The translations under genes and the position numbers were made by a program. A stretch of DNA of 35,443 nucleotides from a virus: positions 1-35,443 of the IMG/VR virus record IMGVR_UViG_3300033388_001269; one strand, given 5' to 3'. The notes below the pieces were generated by a model. That model saw only the letters and a program-made list of their open reading frames with translations. It was not told the DNA's origin and did not search any database. Below are positions 4,756 through 21,452 of the stretch, piece after piece. Position 1 is the first letter of the stretch. Each line of letters begins with the position of its first letter.

Positions 4756-7700
4756 ATGAGTGTTTATATACAAGAGGTATTAGGCCTATTAAAGAGAAAT
4801 AAAAAGAAGACTAAATTAGACAAACAAAGAGATCACTTTGAATTTGGTAAACTTTATCATACTAGTAAGCTAAACACTGGTGCTTCTTATAATCCTACAA
4901 TGGAACCTTTTGTAGTTAAATGGGGAGATATAGTATGTCAAGCCACAGAAGATTTAACAAGAACACAACCAGGATCAGGTAAGGTAGGTAAAATTCCTGT
5001 TTATACTGACCCAGAAGGTTTCTGTTCATGGGATACATTAATGGATTCTATAATGAGTCAAAATGCTATAGGAGATACAATCTCAATAGCAGGTGATCTT
5101 TATGTAGATGGTACTATTACAAGCACTGCTTTAACAGAAGACCGTATAGTTATTGTAGGACCTAACGGGATACTAGAAGATGATGCTAACTTCACAATGG
5201 ATGGAACTACTTTTACAGCTAATGTAAATGTAGCACATGGACCAACTACTATGGCTCCTGTACCACCACACACAACAACTATTAACTCTAATCTTTTCTT
5301 AGAAGGACCTGTTTATGATTCACTTGGTAATATGGGTGGGTTAAACAAAGTTCTTGTTGGTTTAGCAGATGGTAGAGTGAAGTGGCAAGATGATGATGTT
5401 GTAGAAGCACTTACATATGGTGCACTATGGCAAGGAGATCCTACTAACTATAAAGTAGAATTACCTATTGGCACTGCAGATCAAATTCTTATTTCTGATG
5501 GTACTACTTTTTCATGGAAAGATAACCCTGCAGCAATTGTAGGTGAAGTTTGTGATGTATATAGAATTCCATTATGGACTCCAGATTCTCAAACATTGGG
5601 TTGTTCATTGCTTATTCAGAATGGAAACTCTAGTACTCCTGCTACTAAAATTACTAATGACGGTAAACTACAACAAACAAAAGAATTATTCTTAGACACT
5701 GTAACACAAGATGATACTCTGACAGAAGTATTAGTTAGAGATACCGGTTCTGCAAATGAAGTTAAATTCAGAGATGTTAGTACTATTGTGCCTCCTGTAG
5801 GATTTGATACTCTTACTATGAGTACATCTGCAGATTGGACACAAACTTATCTTAATGCATATGTACCCTTAGATGATACTTCTGTAAGTTATATGCGTAT
5901 TGGTGGAATGACAGGATTAACAGATGGTCAAGAAGGACACGTTATTGCAGAAAATGTAAAGACCGGTACTCTTCTAGCACAAGATGCTATTAGATTCCCA
6001 GATGGTTGGGGTGTTGTTGGTGAGTTGTGGGATAATAGAGTATCATGGTTAACAGGTCCAGGTGGAATGAATGGATATAAAGATACAGACACACTATTAT
6101 TTGGTGAGTCACTTAAGTTTAAATATATAAACTATCAAGCTCCTGGTCAATCCAATAACGTTTTATTCTGGGATGCATGCTGTAAACTATATTCTAAAAA
6201 TGACTGTCCTCAAGCAAGTAATCAAACTCATACTATAAATGAAGACACTTCTCTACCTTCAACATCAACTGTTGTAGTAGATAATGGATATGGTGGTTAT
6301 GGCCTTACATATACTATTGTAAGTAATGTAACTAATGGTACTTTAAACTTTAATTTAAATACTGGTGTTTATACATATACACCAAACACTAACTTCTTTG
6401 GTACAGATCAGTTTACTTATACAGTATCAGATGGATATTGTAGTTCTGATGTAACAACTGTAACAATAAATGTTACTGCAGTACCTGAAGCACCAGAATT
6501 TACAAGCCCATGTCCAAATACAAGCAGCTTAATAGCTGGAGGAACATATACATATAACTATACAATTGTAGATCCTGATCATGCAGGCAATCAATTAACA
6601 GTTACATATGAATTACAAGATGCTAATGGTGTTAAAATCACAGGAACATCTTCTGATTGGCTCACTAATACATATAATAATGATTATACTGGTACCATAA
6701 CAGGAACTTATCCAGCAACAGGAGGCACATTTACATTGATTTTGAGTGTAACCGATCCTGATAATCTTGTTGGTCAACAATCTTGTAATATAGCAGGGCT
6801 AATACCAGATAAAGATACATTCTTTAATTTCTGGAGTGATGTATCAGGCTCAATGATTAGTACAATTTCACAAACAGCACAAATGGCTAGTGTATCTACA
6901 GTATATTTCCGAGGAGATGCTCAACAAACAGGAGCTGCTGCTGATGAGTATATATCACTTAACAATGGTTCTGGTTTTGGTAGAGTAGATAAAGCTCAAA
7001 CTGACCAATTAAATGCAGGTTTTTATGCCAATGCACATTTTGCATGCCGTGTAGGTATGAGTGTATTACCTGCAGCTGGTACACCAGATACTTTTGTTGA
7101 TGGATCAGGAAATCCAACTCAAGCTTTTATAGGCAGTTTAAATTATAATGGTGCAGTTTTAACCCTTAAATTTGTAGATGGTTCAGGAAACCCTGTTACC
7201 CATTCTATGCCAGGAGGAGTTACTTTAATTTGTACTTTACCTGATTCAGTTAAAACAGCTGACTATAATGATACAGGTAAAAACTTTAGAAACCTTCTTC
7301 AAGACTTTTATGCAACAGCAGGTACACAAGCAAGTGGAAATACAGATAGAGCTACCAATGGTTCAGATAGATATGATTCACATGTTATATGGACACACGG
7401 TGGTCAAGAGTTATTTGTAGGATGTTTATCTATGAAAAATGGTAGTTTAAATAGAGGCACTGGATCAAATCCAGCAACAAACTGGTTCTATGATGCTACA
7501 CAAATATTCCAACTTGTAATGTATGATGAATCAGGAAGATGTAATGGTATAGATAATGGTTATGAAATGTGTACACAAGACCCAGGATCATGGCCTGATA
7601 GAAATAGTAGTACAAATGCTCTTCTTGTAGGAGATGTTGCTGGCGTTAGAGGTTGGGTAGGTGTACCTCAATATACTGATGCAGGTGGAACAACTCATTC

Positions 7701-8082
7701 TGCAGTAGCCGGGACATTAGATCCTAATGTAACATTTAGAGCAACTTTCTTCCCTATTGCACCAGATCCTAGTAATCCTCCAATAGATACTATGGTTGGT
7801 CATCAAGGAGCTTTTGCTTTAGGTGTAAATGCTAATGTAACAGGATTTATTTATCCTGGTGGTGTACAAACTACTGTTACAACAAATGCAGCAGCATATG
7901 ATGAGCAGCTTGAAACTCTAACACCTCATTACCAAAGTACTCCAGCTCTTATTAGAGCTTATCCTACTACTCAAAATGCATCTGAAAATAATGCATATGT
8001 ATTGAGTGATGGTGCTGGTTCTGTATATTATTATAATGCGGTTAGAGCAGCACTGCTTAACCACGGAGTTACAGGAATCTAA
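4756..8082 (+). CDS. Giant adhesin/fibre-like virion protein with cadherin/Ig-like and VWA-like regions
   Basis: The protein has 1108 residues. It starts with a YIQEVLGLLKRNKKK segment matching the N-terminus of the neighbouring fibre, which suggests a common virion attachment module. Residues about 485-575 form a cadherin/VCBS-like repeat (INEDTSLP start, GVYTYTPNTNFFGTDQFTY, YTVSDG), and about 575-690 a second Ig-like repeat ending LILSVTDPDN. From about residue 688 follows NFWSDVSGSM. D-x-S-x-S at 695-699 is the metal-binding MIDAS pattern of von Willebrand A domains, and SHVIWTHGGQELF further on fits the strand that usually carries the TDG motif. A secreted-adhesin-like virion protein that contacts host surface glycans or proteins is the likely role. 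The VWA assignment is tentative. Confidence 0.7.
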   Translation: MSVYIQEVLGLLKRNKKKTKLDKQRDHFEFGKLYHTSKLNTGASYNPTMEPFVVKWGDIVCQATEDLTRTQPGSGKVGKIPVYTDPEGFCSWDTLMDSIMSQNAIGDTISIAGDLYVDGTITSTALTEDRIVIVGPNGILEDDANFTMDGTTFTANVNVAHGPTTMAPVPPHTTTINSNLFLEGPVYDSLGNMGGLNKVLVGLADGRVKWQDDDVVEALTYGALWQGDPTNYKVELPIGTADQILISDGTTFSWKDNPAAIVGEVCDVYRIPLWTPDSQTLGCSLLIQNGNSSTPATKITNDGKLQQTKELFLDTVTQDDTLTEVLVRDTGSANEVKFRDVSTIVPPVGFDTLTMSTSADWTQTYLNAYVPLDDTSVSYMRIGGMTGLTDGQEGHVIAENVKTGTLLAQDAIRFPDGWGVVGELWDNRVSWLTGPGGMNGYKDTDTLLFGESLKFKYINYQAPGQSNNVLFWDACCKLYSKNDCPQASNQTHTINEDTSLPSTSTVVVDNGYGGYGLTYTIVSNVTNGTLNFNLNTGVYTYTPNTNFFGTDQFTYTVSDGYCSSDVTTVTINVTAVPEAPEFTSPCPNTSSLIAGGTYTYNYTIVDPDHAGNQLTVTYELQDANGVKITGTSSDWLTNTYNNDYTGTITGTYPATGGTFTLILSVTDPDNLVGQQSCNIAGLIPDKDTFFNFWSDVSGSMISTISQTAQMASVSTVYFRGDAQQTGAAADEYISLNNGSGFGRVDKAQTDQLNAGFYANAHFACRVGMSVLPAAGTPDTFVDGSGNPTQAFIGSLNYNGAVLTLKFVDGSGNPVTHSMPGGVTLICTLPDSVKTADYNDTGKNFRNLLQDFYATAGTQASGNTDRATNGSDRYDSHVIWTHGGQELFVGCLSMKNGSLNRGTGSNPATNWFYDATQIFQLVMYDESGRCNGIDNGYEMCTQDPGSWPDRNSSTNALLVGDVAGVRGWVGVPQYTDAGGTTHSAVAGTLDPNVTFRATFFPIAPDPSNPPIDTMVGHQGAFALGVNANVTGFIYPGGVQTTVTTNAAAYDEQLETLTPHYQSTPALIRAYPTTQNASENNAYVLSDGAGSVYYYNAVRAALLNHGVTGI

Positions 8083-13562: not shown

Positions 13563-14138
13563 TTATTTTGTCAAAGATATGGAACTTCTTTTTAATAATT
13601 GCTGAATAATTAAATTATTATCAATTAATGTTTCTTTTTCTAGATCTGGAGGGGTACATATTTCATATACTTCTTCTAAAGTTTCAAGCCTTACACCAAG
13701 AAAATCTGCATATTCACTATGCAAATCTTCTGGTGATAAGAAACCTTGTATATAATCTGATACTTTTCCGTCATCAGCAAAGAAATCTAATATGTTAATT
13801 TTAGATTCTAATGTCAATTGAGAATATTTACCTTTTATAAATCTATTGTAATCATTCTTAATTGGTGATAAGTCAAAAATAAATAAATGTTTATTTGTTT
13901 CTAATTCTATGTACTCTTCAAAATAAGGGACAGTTGTTATGTATTCAGTAATGAACTTTTTAAACTTGTCTGTATATTTTGCTTTGTATTCACAAAAAAA
14001 TCTACAATCTTCAACAGTGTATACATTTTCCCAAGCAACATATGTCTGTTTAGGGACATACGCTAGCCCTTTCTTTAACCTTAATAAAGGATATAGAAAG
14101 ACCTTGCTCTTTTGAAAATAGTCAGTATACACTCCCAT
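13563..14138 (-). CDS. Unknown protein, early operon
   Basis: A 191-residue protein of unknown family. It starts MGVYTDYFQKSKVFLYPLLR, is rich in aromatic and charged residues, and ends in a helix (DNNLIIQQLLKRSSISLTK). No signal peptide, membrane segment, metal site or nucleotide-binding motif is seen. It begins one base after the stop of the PD-(D/E)XK nuclease gene, so the two are almost certainly co-translated, and a supporting role in recombination or replication is plausible. The last codons overlap a promoter-like TATCTTTG box serving the next gene. Confidence 0.6.
   Translation of the reverse strand: MGVYTDYFQKSKVFLYPLLRLKKGLAYVPKQTYVAWENVYTVEDCRFFCEYKAKYTDKFKKFITEYITTVPYFEEYIELETNKHLFIFDLSPIKNDYNRFIKGKYSQLTLESKINILDFFADDGKVSDYIQGFLSPEDLHSEYADFLGVRLETLEEVYEICTPPDLEKETLIDNNLIIQQLLKRSSISLTK
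13572..13579 (-). promoter_or_regulatory. TATCTTTG -7 box before the 139-residue gene
   Basis: A perfect TAnnTTTG box on the minus strand, 18 bases upstream of the ATG at 13553. No TTTG or TTG is found at the usual distance upstream, so it may be weak or depend on an activator. Confidence 0.4.
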
Positions 14139-14139
14139 A

Positions 14140-15129
14140 CTATAAGGTAATCTTATTTGCTAAGAAATCCATGGGAAGTGAGTAGTTTCTGCTGTTATAA
14201 TGGAATTTTGCAGTGTTTATTACACCTTCTAAGCCATTTGTCCATGCATTTATACTATTATCACTAACATCAAAGACATATACTTGATTGTATTTATCTA
14301 TTACAATAAACTTAAACTCTAGAGTATATTCATCTGCTTTATCTCCTAAGAAATCATATACAAGCTTCATATAAATAGCTGCTTGTAACCAATAATTATA
14401 GAAGTCAACTGTTTCTCTAAAATCAGCAACAGTTTTACCTGTAGTTTTTAAGTCACAAATAGTAGCAACCTTTTTATCATTATCTATTTTAAGATAATCA
14501 ACATAACCATGCAGACCAAAAGCAACATCTTTTAATTCAGACTTTAAATACTTCTCACAGTGTACTTCAATAGGATCAAGATCAAAGTCAGTAGTCTCAT
14601 CACTTAATAAAGTTAATACTTCTTCATTGTTCTTAAGATATGTTAGACTATCACTTAACCTATCAAATGTATCACGATCAATTACATCCATACTAGGGTT
14701 TAGTACAAAATCCCAATATGGTACATTGTCTTCTGTTTTTATTTTAGCAACACGTGCTTCATCTTTTTTAAGAGATTGATACAAATTAAGGTGTTGCAGT
14801 GAATCTAAAATTATTCTGTCTTCTACATCTTCTAATGCTTCTACATCAGTATATAAAGACATGTCTTTTAAAACCTTTCTAATGTTCTCACTTGGCAATT
14901 TGCCCGGTACTACATTAAATTTAGTTTTAAATTGATCTGGCTCAAACATAAGACAGTGTAATGCTTTACCTTCTATCAAATGTTTATCTGTTTTGACCTC
15001 ACGGTCCTTTAAAATATAGTCCTTATAGAATAAGGATGGTGAAAATAAAAGTTTATTTAAAGAGGAGTAGCTAAAGCAAAATTCAGTATCTGCATAAAAC
15101 TGCTCCTCTTTTATAGGATCTTTAATCAT
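14140..15129 (-). CDS. PD-(D/E)XK exonuclease, RecB/RecE-type
   Basis: This 329-residue protein begins with SYSSLNKLLFSPSLFYKDY and GKALHCLMF (His58), the usual N-terminus of Cas4/RecB-like and exonuclease VIII-like nucleases. The core is GLHGYVDYL with D211, then ICDLKTTGK with D226 and K228, and the helix YWLQAAIYMKL with Q249 and Y253. All catalytic elements (H, D, D-x-K, Q-x3-Y) are present. It probably degrades DNA ends to yield single strands for annealing by the Sak4-like protein, or degrades host DNA. Its start overlaps the end of the upstream unknown gene by 8 bases, tying it to the ATPase-VWA module. Confidence 0.85.
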   Translation of the reverse strand: MIKDPIKEEQFYADTEFCFSYSSLNKLLFSPSLFYKDYILKDREVKTDKHLIEGKALHCLMFEPDQFKTKFNVVPGKLPSENIRKVLKDMSLYTDVEALEDVEDRIILDSLQHLNLYQSLKKDEARVAKIKTEDNVPYWDFVLNPSMDVIDRDTFDRLSDSLTYLKNNEEVLTLLSDETTDFDLDPIEVHCEKYLKSELKDVAFGLHGYVDYLKIDNDKKVATICDLKTTGKTVADFRETVDFYNYWLQAAIYMKLVYDFLGDKADEYTLEFKFIVIDKYNQVYVFDVSDNSINAWTNGLEGVINTAKFHYNSRNYSLPMDFLANKITL

Positions 15130-16321
15130 CTATTATTTGTTCTTTATATTTATCATTTATTTTTAAATTATCAAAGTCAACGGTAAATACTTCAGCTTCT
15201 GATCCAACTTGAGTATTTAGATGTTTATCCAATAACAATTGTCTTGTTTTGTCTACAGCAAATTTAGTTAATTTCCCGTTACGTGCTAACTTTTGTATAT
15301 AATTATTGAATGACCATATGCCGCTATAACAGTGATTACCCTCAAAATCTTTCATCTGAGCTCTGAATGCTTTTACATTAACTGTATTCCAATTATTGGT
15401 ATTTTTAAACCAATCATAATGCCAATAATATAGCCCAGATACAACATCAAAAGACTTATTTACATTACAATTAGCAAGCATCTCAACAGCAAGTGATCTG
15501 TCATCTATATTACTACTGACAACCATCTTTTCAATATCATCATACTGATCATTTGATATGATAGCTAGACCTTCATCTATTATCTCAATTATAGTTTCAT
15601 CAAGAACCATTCTAGATGCATTAGATAACATAGATTGATATACTTCTACATCTTTAGACCTTGCTGCTGATCCACACAACCCAACCATTAAGCTTCTACC
15701 AGAACCATAATCTTTAAAATATTTATCAGATACTCCTTTTACAGTATCTAAAAAAGCATCTAATACAGCATTAGGTGTAGCATTCCAACTTTGATAATAA
15801 GTATTTATCTTCACTTCAAACATTGAATCTTGTTCTGTATCTTGCAATAAACCTCTAAAGAAATTTAAAGCACAATCAGATAATAAATCTTTAGCTTTTA
15901 TTTGTGCTAAAAATTCATATACTACAGACTTATTATAATGTGAATTCCATGAATGTGTTATAATTTTATTTAAATACTTTTTAGATATAATAGTATAGTC
16001 TGCTTTATCTACATTTCTAGTAACTTTTATGTTATACTTTTCTTTTAATAAATCTACTTTTTGTCTAGGTAAATTTAAATCTGGGTATCTATAAAAACTT
16101 TTATCTTTTATAGTAGAACTATCTAATGTAAGAAGATCATCTAAACCAATGGTTTCTAAGTCATCATTACTTAGACTATAACCAGTACTTGTTCCAAGCC
16201 ATAGACCGCCCTTTGAATAAGAGCAGTTGCTAGCATGAATTTTATATTGACCATTATCTTTCTTACATATATGGTCTCCTTCATCATATAACATTATATG
16301 TAACTTATATGTTTTTCTCAT
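15122..16321 (-). CDS. Unknown protein, paralogue of its upstream neighbour
   Basis: A 399-residue soluble protein with no known family. A core at about residues 74-118 (KSFYRYPDLNLPRQKVDLLK, then NIKVTRNVDKADYTII) aligns with KAFILPKCNVSQDRLKAALK / GITVTNNYELADLVIG of the gene upstream. Similar blocks recur later: IDDRSLAVEML and KAFRAQMKD here match SDDKALALKI and SNFRSLMRK there. The two thus look like tandem paralogues along most of their length. The core resembles a small alpha/beta (Rossmann- or BRCT-like) fold, which is inference. The middle is helix-rich. It starts 4 bases after the stop of the paralogue and overlaps the nuclease gene. Confidence 0.65.
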   Translation of the reverse strand: MRKTYKLHIMLYDEGDHICKKDNGQYKIHASNCSYSKGGLWLGTSTGYSLSNDDLETIGLDDLLTLDSSTIKDKSFYRYPDLNLPRQKVDLLKEKYNIKVTRNVDKADYTIISKKYLNKIITHSWNSHYNKSVVYEFLAQIKAKDLLSDCALNFFRGLLQDTEQDSMFEVKINTYYQSWNATPNAVLDAFLDTVKGVSDKYFKDYGSGRSLMVGLCGSAARSKDVEVYQSMLSNASRMVLDETIIEIIDEGLAIISNDQYDDIEKMVVSSNIDDRSLAVEMLANCNVNKSFDVVSGLYYWHYDWFKNTNNWNTVNVKAFRAQMKDFEGNHCYSGIWSFNNYIQKLARNGKLTKFAVDKTRQLLLDKHLNTQVGSEAEVFTVDFDNLKINDKYKEQIIDD

Positions 16322-16325
16322 AATT

Positions 16326-17360
16326 TTATTTTAAATATTGTTGATACTCTTTCTTAACTGATACTTTAAATACATATAAATCTCTATTATGAATAGAAAT
16401 CTCTTGTCTTACTATAGGCTCTAGATATTTAAAGTAAGTCTTGTTTAATAATTCTCTACTCTCTAACCATAAGATCATATCCTGTGCACTTTTACGCATT
16501 AATGATCTAAAATTAGACTCTTTTAACCAGTACTGAAGATCTTTATCTCTGTTATCAGCATACTCAAGACTACTACAATCTTGTGCTAGCTGCCACATTA
16601 AATGTAAATTCTTAGTATAGTCTATAGTAGGAACTATTTTAAGAGCTAAGGCCTTATCATCACTGTATGAATTAAGCTGTGCTTTTAAATCAGCTAGCAA
16701 AGTTTCATCAAGTGTCAAGAGGTTAGCAGATGAATGTAATACTGTCTCAGGGTCAACAACAGTTAGATCTGTTGTATCTATAAGGTGAGCTAAATTAATA
16801 GCCATACCTGTAAGCATCCAGACATCATATAAACTTTCTTCCATGTCTATATCATAGTACCTTACACGATCTGTAATTTGTGGTGTCACTATACACTCTA
16901 AACCTGAATCAGCCACTGCTTTTAAAACACCAGTACTATTACTATCTCCAAGAGTTGTCTCATAGTTCCACAACTTATTCATCATAAGTGTAGATGGTAT
17001 ATTGTCAGCATTCTGTAGCTTATATGTGCTTATATCATTATGACCTATAACTAGATCAGCTAATTCATAATTGTTTGTTACAGTTATACCATGCTCTTTA
17101 AGAGCAGCTTTCAATCTATCTTGTGATACATTACACTTTGGTAGTATGAAAGCTTTCTTTTTGGTTCTAAAAGTTTGTCCATCTTCTGTAGGGACAGTTA
17201 ATATACTGTTTATTTTATCATATGTTGTTTGATCTTGAGTGCACAATACTTTATTAATACTCATAGAGCTAGAAACCAACCCATAAAATGGGTCAGCCTC
17301 TAGTCCAAAGTATTTCAAAGCATCTGCATCAAAATCTTGATATACGGATTTTGTTGCCAT
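16326..17360 (-). CDS. Unknown protein, tandem paralogue, coupled to MoxR-like ATPase
   Basis: A 344-residue protein of unknown family. It carries the core KAFILPKCNVSQDRLKAALK-EHG-ITVTNNYELADLVIG (about 70-111), shared with the next gene. Further conserved blocks are SDDKALALKI (about 230) and a C-terminal half rich in helices (WLESRELLNKTYFKYLEPIV). No catalytic motif is evident. Its ATG follows the stop of the MoxR-like ATPase gene after one base, the tightest link in the region. A partner, adaptor or substrate of the ATPase is the most economical guess. The repeated AD-x-V-I strand ends could form a ligand pocket, but this is not shown. Confidence 0.65.
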   Translation of the reverse strand: MATKSVYQDFDADALKYFGLEADPFYGLVSSSMSINKVLCTQDQTTYDKINSILTVPTEDGQTFRTKKKAFILPKCNVSQDRLKAALKEHGITVTNNYELADLVIGHNDISTYKLQNADNIPSTLMMNKLWNYETTLGDSNSTGVLKAVADSGLECIVTPQITDRVRYYDIDMEESLYDVWMLTGMAINLAHLIDTTDLTVVDPETVLHSSANLLTLDETLLADLKAQLNSYSDDKALALKIVPTIDYTKNLHLMWQLAQDCSSLEYADNRDKDLQYWLKESNFRSLMRKSAQDMILWLESRELLNKTYFKYLEPIVRQEISIHNRDLYVFKVSVKKEYQQYLK

Positions 17361-17361
17361 A

Positions 17362-18636
17362 TTACTTCATTGTCATCTTGACAATCTCAGGGATCATCAT
17401 TAGTTTGTTAAACTTCTTTTTATTACCATTAAATATTGTACGTACAATTAAATACTTCAGATCATTAGTAAAATAATCTGCAGTACATAAACTCTTAAGT
17501 CTATCAGTAATTTTCTGGTTGATAGTATTATCTTGAGAATATACTACAGAATAATTACCAAGTCTTGTAGCTAATGTAGATGCAATATCTGCACGGTAAG
17601 TATCATCTTTACCAATACAAGATCTCAATTCATTAAGAATATATTGCTCATTGTCATGAAGCAAGAGATCTTTTGGTGTAACAAGCTTATCAAGCTTATT
17701 ATTAATAAAGGTTGTAAACATAGAAGCAAATGCATCTCCAACACTACCTTCACCAATCATTTGGATTATACCAAGGTTATCTTCAAAGCTTTCAAAGCTT
17801 GATATTGCATTAAAGAATGTTGTAATAGATCTTGCATTTGTTTCTTGTGTGACTAACTCTGGGTGAAGTAACAGGAAGTTAATACATCTAGTATCAATTC
17901 CTGCACCCTCTGCCCATTGTGCCCATACATTAACATCAAACTTCAAGTTAGCGGTTACATATCTAGTCTTCTGTGCTGCGTCAACACTGTTAACCATATA
18001 GTCTCCATTGTCTGGGTTTGCTGTTAAAATTATGTGCCAGTCTTTTGGTAATGTCCAAGAAATATAAGTTTGTCTATCTATTAGTTCCATAACCGCTTGG
18101 ATAAATCTAGTATCTGCACGGTTCCAGTCATCAAGAAGTAAAATACCTCCTTCTTTCTTATCAGCTATCCATTCTGGTGCACAATAAGACATTCTGTTCT
18201 TACCTGTCATTTTGTATCCATTCTTTAGATACTCTTGTACGGCAAGTTCATCAACCCACATACCAACTTTTTTGGTGATGGTTTGATTTAAGTTTGCTAA
18301 ACTTGATCCGGCAGCTCTTTGTGCTGCTGTAACCATAGAGATGTCATCTATTTTTGCTGGTGCATTGACTTTCTTTTCTTTATACATCTGGAACTGTCTT
18401 ACAGGAAACCCTACAAGATCACCCAGCTCTTCTATCTGTGCTAAATTAAGTTTTACAAAGTTTAGGTTATTCTCTTTTGCAAGCTCTACAATAGTAGAAG
18501 TCTTACCAATACCTGACTCACCTACAACTTCTACTGATACAGCGTTCTTACCGTTTTCCTGTAAGTATCTGTTGTTGTTAATAATGTGATTTACAAATCC
18601 TTTTAGCTCATCAATGTTTAAATTTACTTGTGCCAT
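17362..18636 (-). CDS. MoxR-like AAA+ ATPase
   Basis: This 424-residue protein has a Walker A VVGESGIGKTS (K45), a long insert, Walker B GGILLLDDWNRAD (D169-D170) and sensor-1 WHIILTANPDNGDYMV (about 200-214), followed by an AAA lid. This is the pattern of the MoxR/dynein-related (AAA_5) branch, whose members work with VWA proteins as unfoldases or remodelling chaperones (RavA-ViaA, NorQ-NorD). Here the gene directly follows a metallopeptidase/VWA gene (6-base gap) and precedes two paralogous unknown genes, matching that pairing. Phage substrates are unknown; remodelling of replication or virion complexes is possible. Confidence 0.88.
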   Translation of the reverse strand: MAQVNLNIDELKGFVNHIINNNRYLQENGKNAVSVEVVGESGIGKTSTIVELAKENNLNFVKLNLAQIEELGDLVGFPVRQFQMYKEKKVNAPAKIDDISMVTAAQRAAGSSLANLNQTITKKVGMWVDELAVQEYLKNGYKMTGKNRMSYCAPEWIADKKEGGILLLDDWNRADTRFIQAVMELIDRQTYISWTLPKDWHIILTANPDNGDYMVNSVDAAQKTRYVTANLKFDVNVWAQWAEGAGIDTRCINFLLLHPELVTQETNARSITTFFNAISSFESFEDNLGIIQMIGEGSVGDAFASMFTTFINNKLDKLVTPKDLLLHDNEQYILNELRSCIGKDDTYRADIASTLATRLGNYSVVYSQDNTINQKITDRLKSLCTADYFTNDLKYLIVRTIFNGNKKKFNKLMMIPEIVKMTMK

Positions 18637-19017
18637 TTTCTATTAATTTAATTTTATTTTTAATCCTGGTAACTCTTCATTTATACTAGAAACACTGCTA
18701 TGTACCCATAAGGTATTAGTTGGACAGTTTTCTGGTGCATAAGCTTCACCATCTGTTAAGTATACAAGGGCGGTATATCTTCCCTTCTTTTCATTATAGT
18801 GATCAATTACTGGTTGGAAGCTAGTTCCACCACGACCATGTATTTCCCAATCCTTATTAGGATTAAATTCTTTCACGCTGTTTAAGCGGGTATCACATTG
18901 TGCTACTGTTATCTTATGACCTGTCTTATGCATATGTGCAAGTTCACTAAAGAACTCTTTAAGCTCATCATTATTTACAGATCCACTTGTGTCAACACCA
19001 ACAAGTATGTGATTCTT

Positions 19018-19039
19018 GAATTTAATCTGAATTTAATCT
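19018..19039. repeat. 11-bp tandem duplication inside VWA gene
   Basis: GAATTTAATCT occurs twice in a row (19018-19028, 19029-19039). Deleting one copy joins GLKIKF to KNHILVGVDTSGS in one frame, which restores the entry strand of the VWA domain. Confidence 0.85.
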
Positions 19040-19282
19040 TAAGTCCTGGATTAGCTGAATATCTTTTATTGTATTTACGTCTCAGCTTTTTTGTATATAC
19101 TACGCTAGAATTTCCTACAAATCTTCTTAGATAACCTTTCCAATCAAACTTTGGTGGTTCTACATTCATCAACCTTCTAATGAGATCAGCAAACTCTCCG
19201 GGTATATTACCTTGTTTCTTTACTGTTTGCTCTGCAGATTCTTTTAGTTGATGTTCAATTTGTTTTTGAACTAACTTCTTAT

Positions 19283-19292
19283 CTGCTCTGCT
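19283..19292. repeat. 5-bp tandem duplication inside metallopeptidase/VWA gene
   Basis: CTGCT occurs twice in a row. Deleting one copy joins DDLSEA to DKKLVQKQIEHQLKES in one frame. As given, it leads to a stop at 19271. Confidence 0.75.
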
Positions 19293-19745
19293 TCTGATAA
19301 ATCATCAAAGTCATCCCAACCGGCATGACAATATTGTGAATTACCATCCATTTGATTCATTAAGTTATCTAGAGATGGAGATGTACCATCTTGTTGTGCT
19401 TGTTCCAATAGTTCATAATAAACTTTTGTACCTGCTTTTTTAGGAAGATTTAATTCAGGAAAGCTACTAAGCAGTAATCCGCCTTCTGGTAACTTACTTT
19501 CTGCTATATACTGATTAATTTCCAAATCTGCAGCTATATTAAATAGCTTATGATCTGCATATAGATCTCTCATAATTAAATGACCAAAGCCAATGTGCAA
19601 TAGCTCATGCTTAATTAATCCATATCTGTGATCTTCACTGAGGTTTTTATAAAACTCAGGATTTATAGTTAACTGCATACCAATACCATGTTTACTTACA
19701 CCAGCTGTTGGTATTTGTTCTGTATATTGTTTATTGATACCAATT

Positions 19746-19768
19746 AAAAAGAGCCCGTAAAAGGGCTC
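19746..19768 (-). terminator. Intrinsic-terminator-like hairpin within the metallopeptidase coding region
   Basis: On the minus strand GAGCCC, loop TTTTAC, GGGCTC, then TTTTT: a 6-bp GC-rich stem with a U-tract. It lies about 55-75 bases after the start codon and encodes EPFYGLF, a segment usual for this family. It could attenuate transcription into the ATPase-VWA genes, or be a by-product of the protein sequence. Confidence 0.45.
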
Positions 19769-19814
19769 AGTAAATATTAAACTCTTGGTTGTTCTTGCAA
19801 CCAAATCTTGAATG

Positions 19815-20105
19815 TTATTCATCTAGTAATTTTTTAAGTATATCCATATATATATGATTAAATGATTCTGTTTCTATAAAAGCATATAGTTTTTTAGAAT
19901 CAGCAATGAATTCAAATTTAACTGCATCAATAAATTGTTGACGGTTCTTAAACATAAGAGCCTTTGCCATCAATTGACTTAGTATTATTTTGTCTTCATA
20001 TGTATTATCAAATATTTCCCATGCAAGTTCTTTATCTTCTTGGCCTCCACTAAACATTTGCTTTAACCTGAAAAATTCTTCAACTGTTATTATCTTTTTT
20101 TTCAT
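19815..20105 (-). CDS. Small helical protein, unknown
   Basis: A 96-residue protein from the ATG at 20105 (MKKKIITVEEFFRLKQMF); a TTG two codons earlier is less likely. It is rich in Phe, Lys and Glu, probably all helical (KELAWEIFDNTYEDKIILS, LMAKALMFKNRQQFIDAV), with no catalytic motif. It overlaps the end of the RusA gene by 26 bases and the start of the metallopeptidase gene by 8 bases, so it is a link in a co-translated chain between recombination genes and the ATPase-VWA module. No family is recognised. Confidence 0.6.
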   Translation of the reverse strand: MKKKIITVEEFFRLKQMFSGGQEDKELAWEIFDNTYEDKIILSQLMAKALMFKNRQQFIDAVKFEFIADSKKLYAFIETESFNHIYMDILKKLLDE

Positions 20106-20469
20106 TCTCAATTAATTCTATCCATACTCCTGGGTTCTTCTTATCATAAGTATATTGTTCAAATGCTGGTATAATAAACTCAGCATTATCATCCTCAATC
20201 CAACCGTGCTTAACCATATCATCTTGCACTGTTTGCGCAGGATTTATATAATCAAATTTATGACGGCTACCTCTTATAAATTCAAATGATACTTTAACTG
20301 GCAGATCTAACTTTGCTACTTCAGCTTTGAATTCATCAGCATAATCAGCATAATACTGTTTAGTTGCTTTTCTATAATTCATTACAGCTTTACTTGCAAT
20401 AAAGTATTTACCTGTCCAACGTCTTCCATTCTTACTAGAGGGTACATTTCCTGGTATAAACCATTTCAT
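20080..20469 (-). CDS. rusA: RusA-like Holliday junction resolvase
   Basis: This 129-residue protein begins WFIPGNVPSSKNGRRWTGKY, the usual RusA opening (P-x-x-K-x-R). The active-site region reads KFDYINPAQTVQDDMVKHGW then IEDDNAEFI: D73, D83/D84 and D93/D94 match the three acidic residues of RusA (D-x-x-N, K/D-D-x-L/M, DD). RusA proteins are dimeric endonucleases that resolve branched DNA, here likely concatemer or recombination junctions before packaging. Length is normal for the family. It starts 2 bases after the primase gene stop region and overlaps the next small gene, so it belongs to the replication operon. Confidence 0.82.
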   Translation of the reverse strand: MKWFIPGNVPSSKNGRRWTGKYFIASKAVMNYRKATKQYYADYADEFKAEVAKLDLPVKVSFEFIRGSRHKFDYINPAQTVQDDMVKHGWIEDDNAEFIIPAFEQYTYDKKNPGVWIELIENEKKDNNS

Positions 20470-20471
20470 AA

Positions 20472-21452
20472 TTATTTGTTTAAAGTATTCTTCAACAAAG
20501 GTTTCAGCATTTTATGTACTTCATCAAAGCCATGTTGTTTCATAGCATCTGATATGTCTTTACATAAAGTAGGATGTATACCATGTATACCATATACATC
20601 AGTATATTTCTGTATAGCATGCTTACCCGCTTCATCATTATCAAAGAAAGTTATTACTTTATCAAATTTCTTTTTAAGATGCTGAATGACGTGTGGTTTT
20701 ATCATAGTATTCTCTGAGTCTGGTGCTATAACTTCTATGTTATATCCCATACCTTTTAAACACATTGCATCTTTTAAAGATGAACAAATAACTAAATAAG
20801 GTTGATTGTACTTAAGTTGATCAATGCCCTGCAGATACTGCTTGGCTTTAAAAAACTTATGCTTTTTACTATGGGGCTGATATATTTTATATACATCACC
20901 ATTCTTGTCAAAGTAACCATAGCAAAACTTACTACCTATTTTCAGCTTTTTTAATTCATTTGATTCTTGTTTTACCAGATTATAATATTCTATTGGTTTT
21001 ACATTATAGGCATCAAGTATTGTTTTACCTATTCTGTATGATAACCAATAGTCTTTATCATCTGTTGTCCAACTCCTAACTTTTATAAAATCAATTTCCC
21101 ATCTAGATTGCGGGATGAAATTAGTGTCTTCTATATAGTCAGATGTTCTTACAAACTTATTGTAATCATTTACCATTCTTCTCATGGCTTCAGAAAAGCT
21201 GAGGTTAAGTACATACTTAACTAAATCAACTTTAGCACCACTTTTACCGGTAGAGAAATCTTTAAACTTGTATTGCATTATAGATTTATCTACATATATG
21301 CAAAAGCTTGGTGTTCTCTCATTAGGATTAAAGATAGATTTAATCTTTATATCCTGACCTGTCAGTCTTTCTGGTAGGTCTAAATAGTATTGAAATACCC
21401 ATGTGCTAGGAACATCTGAACCTTCTATTACAAAGTTCTTAGTGCTAAACAT
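20472..21452 (-). CDS. DnaG-like TOPRIM primase (no zinc finger)
   Basis: The protein has 326 residues. The N-terminal part has FNPNERTPSFCIYVDKS and KFKDFSTGKSGAKVDLVKYV (about 41-81), the strand pattern after the CHC2 finger of phage primases, but the Cys/His cluster itself is absent. The C-terminal half is a TOPRIM domain: YLVICSSLKDAMCLKGMG (about 219-236), VITFFDNDEAGKHA with DND at 271-273, and CKDISDAM. Motif I has S-S-L-K-D where most primases have a Glu. It should make RNA primers for the DnaB-like helicase encoded in the same block. A terminator lies just upstream, separating it from the SSB/Sak4 unit. Confidence 0.8.
   Translation of the reverse strand: MFSTKNFVIEGSDVPSTWVFQYYLDLPERLTGQDIKIKSIFNPNERTPSFCIYVDKSIMQYKFKDFSTGKSGAKVDLVKYVLNLSFSEAMRRMVNDYNKFVRTSDYIEDTNFIPQSRWEIDFIKVRSWTTDDKDYWLSYRIGKTILDAYNVKPIEYYNLVKQESNELKKLKIGSKFCYGYFDKNGDVYKIYQPHSKKHKFFKAKQYLQGIDQLKYNQPYLVICSSLKDAMCLKGMGYNIEVIAPDSENTMIKPHVIQHLKKKFDKVITFFDNDEAGKHAIQKYTDVYGIHGIHPTLCKDISDAMKQHGFDEVHKMLKPLLKNTLNK

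Follow-up and report, generated by a model that had tools for sequence, protein, structure and literature searches.

A four-gene cassette in a phage replication operon

The DNA analyzed here, called the window, comprises 35,443 bases of a virus record (IMG/VR IMGVR_UViG_3300033388_001269). It is assigned to a crAss-like marine phage lineage (~115 kb) that is widespread in the ocean, uncultivated, and related to crAssphage; in a large terminase search with a complete relative (G004), the closest matches were crAss-like phages first. The minus strand of the window carries a replication operon with genes for a helicase, a Sak4-like protein, SSB, primase, and a RusA-type resolvase, then a metallopeptidase-von Willebrand factor A (VWA) protein, a MoxR-type ATPase, and two further proteins (A344 and B399), followed by a PD-(D/E)XK exonuclease and, farther on, a family B DNA polymerase (Table 1). 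From primase to exonuclease, spacing between the open reading frames (ORFs) is 1 to 6 bases or a small overlap. An ORF check returned the same coordinates and tight spacing for MoxR and the two twin ORFs as the first-pass annotation. The annotation had also set the module between RusA/primase and the PD-(D/E)XK nuclease, and this placement on the minus strand stands, but the 98-aa ORF at its left border had gone unmentioned.

Table 1. Features of the cassette and its surroundings in the window
Feature	Position	Strand	Basis
DNA primase (TOPRIM)	20472..21452	-	ORF and profile matches
RusA-type resolvase	20080..20469	-	Homologous to phi14:2 gp55, E 2e-48
98-aa ORF, left cassette border, between RusA and VWA gene	19815..20111	-	ORF list, conserved order
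Metallopeptidase (HELLH) and VWA (MIDAS) gene, DUF2201_N/DUF2201	18643..19822	-	387 aa in relatives, split in window
5-bp tandem duplication (AGCAG), breaks VWA frame	19287..19297, approximate (~19292)	-	Alignment to relatives
11-bp tandem duplication, second VWA frame break	19019..19039 (~19029-19039)	-	Alignment to relatives
MoxR-type AAA+ ATPase, 424 aa	17362..18636	-	PHROG 1297, motifs
A344, first twin protein, 344 aa; BRCT-like N-terminal piece and helical C-terminal part	16326..17360	-	Profiles, model
B399, second twin protein, 399 aa; layout as A344	15122..16321	-	Profiles, model
PD-(D/E)XK exonuclease, right cassette border	14140..15129	-	Homologous to phi14:2 gp57
191-aa ORF after exonuclease	13563..14138	-	Homologous to phi14:2 gp58

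A MoxR ATPase and a metallopeptidase-VWA partner

The proposal of a MoxR-like ATPase was borne out by a family-level profile match to PHROG 1297 ("ATPase"; E 4.8e-34) and by its motifs; the score against Pfam AAA_5 (21.0 bits) lies just under Pfam's threshold of 22. Walker A (GESGIGKT in the window), Walker B (LLLDDWNRAD), the sensor 1 Asn, and the Arg residues are invariant in 76 MoxR sequences. In all 76, Asp replaces the catalytic Glu normally found in Walker B, giving DD where five phage comparators have DE. In one relative (L153, 2943-5263), an insertion of ~1.07 kb with a 235-aa GIY-YIG homing-endonuclease-like ORF falls precisely at Walker B and separates MoxR residues 174 and 175; this split is therefore set apart from the frame breaks discussed below. 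The insertion is probably an intron, although an Rfam scan of L153 matched no intron model despite the GIY-YIG ORF. Two MoxR records labeled "Bacteriophage sp." were rejected as phage because they look like bacterial contigs. Crassphage cr118_1 gp29 (L381, 45670-46809), near the polymerase genes, is annotated as a CbbQ/NirQ/NorQ-type ATPase and matches PHROG 1297 at E 5e-6; DUF2201 was not found in the cr118_1 genome.

The partner gene encodes a DUF2201 metallopeptidase-VWA protein, with an HExxH peptidase domain joined to a VWA domain bearing a MIDAS. The intact protein of a relative (L008) scores above cut-off for both PF13203 (DUF2201_N; 67.9 bits) and PF09967 (DUF2201; 60.7 bits). Across 80 VWA sequences, HExxH and the core MIDAS residues Asp/Ser/Thr (DxSxS, T, D) are invariant, and the Gly within DxSGS is replaced by Ala in two. 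The protein is matched by 475 phage records, and in phage annotation such proteins are often labeled "HNH endonuclease" (PHROG 1314 included). PJN101 WMM35536, a further candidate VWA protein, failed to align as one and was dropped. In five relatives (L054, at 7569-8001, and L053, L056, L059, and L062), the VWA gene and MoxR lie ~430 bases farther apart, and the added sequence has one open stretch of ~130 codons.

Frame breaks in the VWA gene

A single HELLH metallopeptidase/VWA gene had been annotated in the window. Its domain content holds, with DUF2201_N and DUF2201 both scoring, but the reading as one ORF does not: the 1,180 bases are not a multiple of three and are spread over three frames by two tandem duplications, whereas relatives have an intact gene of 387 aa. 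Among the fetched loci, the VWA frame is split only in the window, L001, and L002, with different indels in each. Other irregularities are an in-frame loss of 69 bases from the G004 VWA gene, a MoxR deletion in G004 (G007 differs from G004 at that spot), and breaks of A344 in L001 and L012.

At first we suspected that selection was truly removing the VWA gene, through independent indels in VWA, MoxR, and A344 of near-identical genomes. The case seemed convincing, because every indel in the ~10 kb common to the window, L001, and L002 falls within VWA or A344; the MoxR deletions of G004 and G007, which lie at one spot but are not the same, could be read in the same way. Analysis of the strain junctions led us to drop it as very improbable. 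Co-assembled strains share identical stretches with the window strain here, the longest being 115, 95, 114, and 258 bases, and most of the indels lie at or close to an end of one of these; the 11-bp duplication, for example, abuts a 115-bp match (19028-18914). Several junctions also coincide with a switch of strain, as in L012, where the break is a change from L011-like to window-identical sequence, and contigs end there too. The indels of L002 sit in a diverged stretch of its VWA region. Exceptions are the 5-bp duplication and both L002 deletions, which lie away from exact-match ends. The named broken contigs all come from one dataset series. Given how often junctions coincide with strain changes and exact matches end at or near the indels, the frame breaks in the window look like assembly errors, and no biological meaning should be drawn from them. 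Where co-assembled strains have long identical stretches in common, assembled phage contigs can thus contain indels that mimic gene loss.

Two very distantly related twin proteins

The last two genes of the cassette had been proposed to encode paralogues. BLASTP of A344 against B399 was silent on this point (E 0.5), so comparison of profiles was adopted. Profile-profile alignment matched the C-terminal halves at E 2.6e-5 and the N-terminal pieces at E 3e-4, and none of 60 column-shuffled controls reached either score, with a small margin for the N-terminal match; crossed N- to C-terminal comparisons gave no match. The proposal is thus upheld by profiles rather than by BLASTP, and the matching of parts in the same order supports reading A344 and B399 as very distant paralogues.

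Neither protein had a match over threshold in Pfam, NCBIfam, PADLOC, or PDB sequences. Their AlphaFold models are good (pLDDT 89 and 90), and both comprise a weakly BRCT-like N-terminal piece and a helical C-terminal half. Against solved structures (PDB), neither model had a match below E 0.001, with BRCT domains of PARP1 recurring among the weak fold matches of both twins; the Pfam BRCT profile gave under-cut-off matches in 5 of 41 A members (best E 0.04). The N-terminal pieces therefore may resemble BRCT, with neither a Pfam score over cut-off nor a significant fold match, and we do not class the twins as BRCT proteins. Among predicted viral proteins (BFVD), the A344 fold had four matches at E ~1e-5, including A0A8S5TKB2 and A0A8S5TL70, both of Podoviridae sp. 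ctz6O13, and A0A8S5QMV2 of CrAss-like virus ctYsL76; these three are alike in fold (probability 1.00), but their sequence identity to A344 is just 8 to 13%. By sequence, tblastn found no A or B in cultured phages (an N-terminal A fragment gave chance-level matches only), and the A and B profiles matched nothing in five other MoxR phages or, in runs that lacked a positive control, in ten crAss-like records.

A fixed order and a cassette-free site

The order RusA, small ORF, VWA/peptidase, MoxR, A344, B399, PD-(D/E)XK recurs in every fetched relative. A344 was present in 326 fetched loci, a count that includes many repeat fetches of the same contigs (79 distinct A sequences among loci L001 to L174), and MoxR always lies directly upstream; two flagged exceptions both trace to one contig, whose A gene is broken. 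Of the 326 loci, 314 also have B, the rest being cut by contig ends. The first-pass annotation had asked whether the twins always accompany MoxR and VWA genes or occur widely apart from them, and by sequence A344 is found only beside MoxR in the fetched loci. Every locus with A and B by sequence belongs to one lineage, so that the co-occurrence of A, B, MoxR, and VWA partly reflects common descent.

For the same reason, stronger evidence comes from the cultured Cellulophaga phage phi14:2, in which RusA (gp55) is followed by gp56, the exonuclease (gp57), and gp58, and MoxR, VWA, A, and B are all missing from this stretch. Homology to the window genes is at E 2e-48 for gp55, E 1e-11 for gp57, and E 3.5e-9 for gp58. 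Since phi14:2 keeps RusA, a small ORF, and the exonuclease together and lacks these four genes, VWA-MoxR-A-B behaves as a discrete cassette that occupies a slot among replication genes. In the gut crAss-like phages cr118_1, cr50_1, and cr130_1, a resolvase likewise lies near an exonuclease with other cargo or none between; the resolvases of these three phages do not score as homologous to RusA, and the slot comparison is therefore firmest for phi14:2.

Contrasting rates of evolution

Over the top 80 loci ranked by MoxR similarity, median amino acid identity was 89% for MoxR (somewhat inflated, as MoxR was used to choose the loci), 83% for VWA, 60% for A, and 39% for B, with dN/dS of 0.075, 0.10, 0.19, and 0.46, respectively. 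Among the genes measured, constraint is strongest on MoxR and VWA and weakest on B.

One explanation of the cassette is a conflict system directed against host defenses or rival phages, in which A and B would be sensors that trigger a MoxR-VWA-peptidase effector, by analogy with the three-part systems of bacteria. The logic is shared with systems that combine MoxR, a peptidase-vWA protein, and a fast-evolving sensor (PMC7159879, PMC12839542), no gene measured evolves faster than B, and the resolvase-exonuclease site carries different cargo in gut crAss-like phages. Against it, the cassette is fixed throughout the lineage rather than patchy. In PADLOC, MoxR gave only weak partial matches (DolB, BrxF), and VWA, A, and B gave no match. 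Profiles for VMAP, FtsH-type, and iSTAND components found no match in Pfam, NCBIfam, or PADLOC; as such components are described as rapidly evolving, a third component of this kind may be present all the same. Taken together, we regard a conflict system as unlikely.

Proposed function of the cassette

We propose, at a probability of roughly 45%, that the cassette encodes an ATP-driven machine for remodeling or proteolysis, with A344 and B399 as dedicated adaptors or clients. MoxR would assemble into a hexameric ring onto which the peptidase-VWA protein could dock through its VWA domain, as in the cryo-EM model of NorQ-NorD (PMC9976466). The metal site of the MIDAS may then grip an acidic residue of the target, which the HELLH domain, as a putative protease, might cleave. 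The diverged pair A344 and B399 would serve the machine as its adaptors or clients, and the operon context favors a replication-stage or host complex as the most likely target. Support comes from the gene set, the intact catalytic motifs, the fixed gene order, the cassette-free site of phi14:2, the distant A-B paralogy, the contrast in rates, and the position on the strand opposite terminase and portal in G004. Against it count the weak BRCT-like call, the restriction to a single lineage, and the fast evolution of B, which could simply reflect weak constraint; the complex and its activities are predicted.

The operon context also bears on a more specific role, in which the machine would load or unload replication or recombination complexes and the BRCT-like domains would bind DNA ends or partner proteins. 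Its neighbors (primase, RusA, SSB, Sak4-like protein, helicase, and exonuclease) and the BRCT-like piece in both twins are consistent with such a replisome remodeler, but cassette-free crAss-like relatives retain the same replication genes, and we consider the role improbable. Virion assembly, with a chaperone and a processing protease, has been proposed for jumbo phages and for archaeal ATV, but as the role of this cassette it seems to us comparably doubtful. A metallopeptidase-vWA protein with MoxR has been put forward for that function (PMC7824862), and the homologues of N4 gp24/gp25 in roseophage RPP1 have some structural genes in their vicinity (PMC4193335). In contrast, the cassette sits within a replication operon on the strand opposite terminase and portal, as seen in the complete relative G004, and N4 gp24/gp25 are middle genes (PMC4193335). 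More speculatively, the cassette could be a mobile four-component phage system carried as cargo in crAss-like replication operons; its two BRCT-like recognition proteins, diverged from each other, would steer a MoxR-driven metalloprotease to complexes of the host or of rival phages. We consider this reading improbable as well.

Comparison with known MoxR-VWA systems

A phage chaperone of the MoxR/VWA type had been suggested to be new, which published work contradicts. The AAA ATPase gp24 and the vWFA protein gp25 of N4 are adjacent core genes of N4-like phages (Schitoviridae) on middle transcripts (PMC4193335, PMC2784036) and occur in hundreds of phages, group 2.2 jumbo phages pair MoxR with a metallopeptidase-vWA protein (Iyer et al. 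2021, PMC7824862), and there are the 475 phage records noted above. Despite their being core genes of many phages, we found no established role for MoxR-VWA pairs in the phage literature. Within the literature searched, neither the twins nor the cassette of four genes appears to have been described.

The A/B twins were not seen in the N4-like record checked, and the phage order differs. The jumbo phage pair has the same domain pairing, with an N-terminal metallopeptidase fused to VWA, but was proposed to act in virion assembly and has no twins reported, whereas the cassette is part of a replication operon. The remodeling chaperones RavA-ViaA and NorQ-NorD likewise combine a MoxR ATPase with a VWA partner; in the cassette, this partner has a metallopeptidase domain, the context is a phage, and two proteins are added. 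The ternary MoxR-vWA conflict systems (PMC7159879) share MoxR, a vWA protein with a peptidase, and a rapidly evolving third component, but the VMAP, FtsH, or iSTAND component was not found in the cassette. Because the cassette adds two proposed dedicated partners, and phi14:2 is a relative that naturally lacks it, what a MoxR-VWA machine does in a phage becomes testable through these partners.
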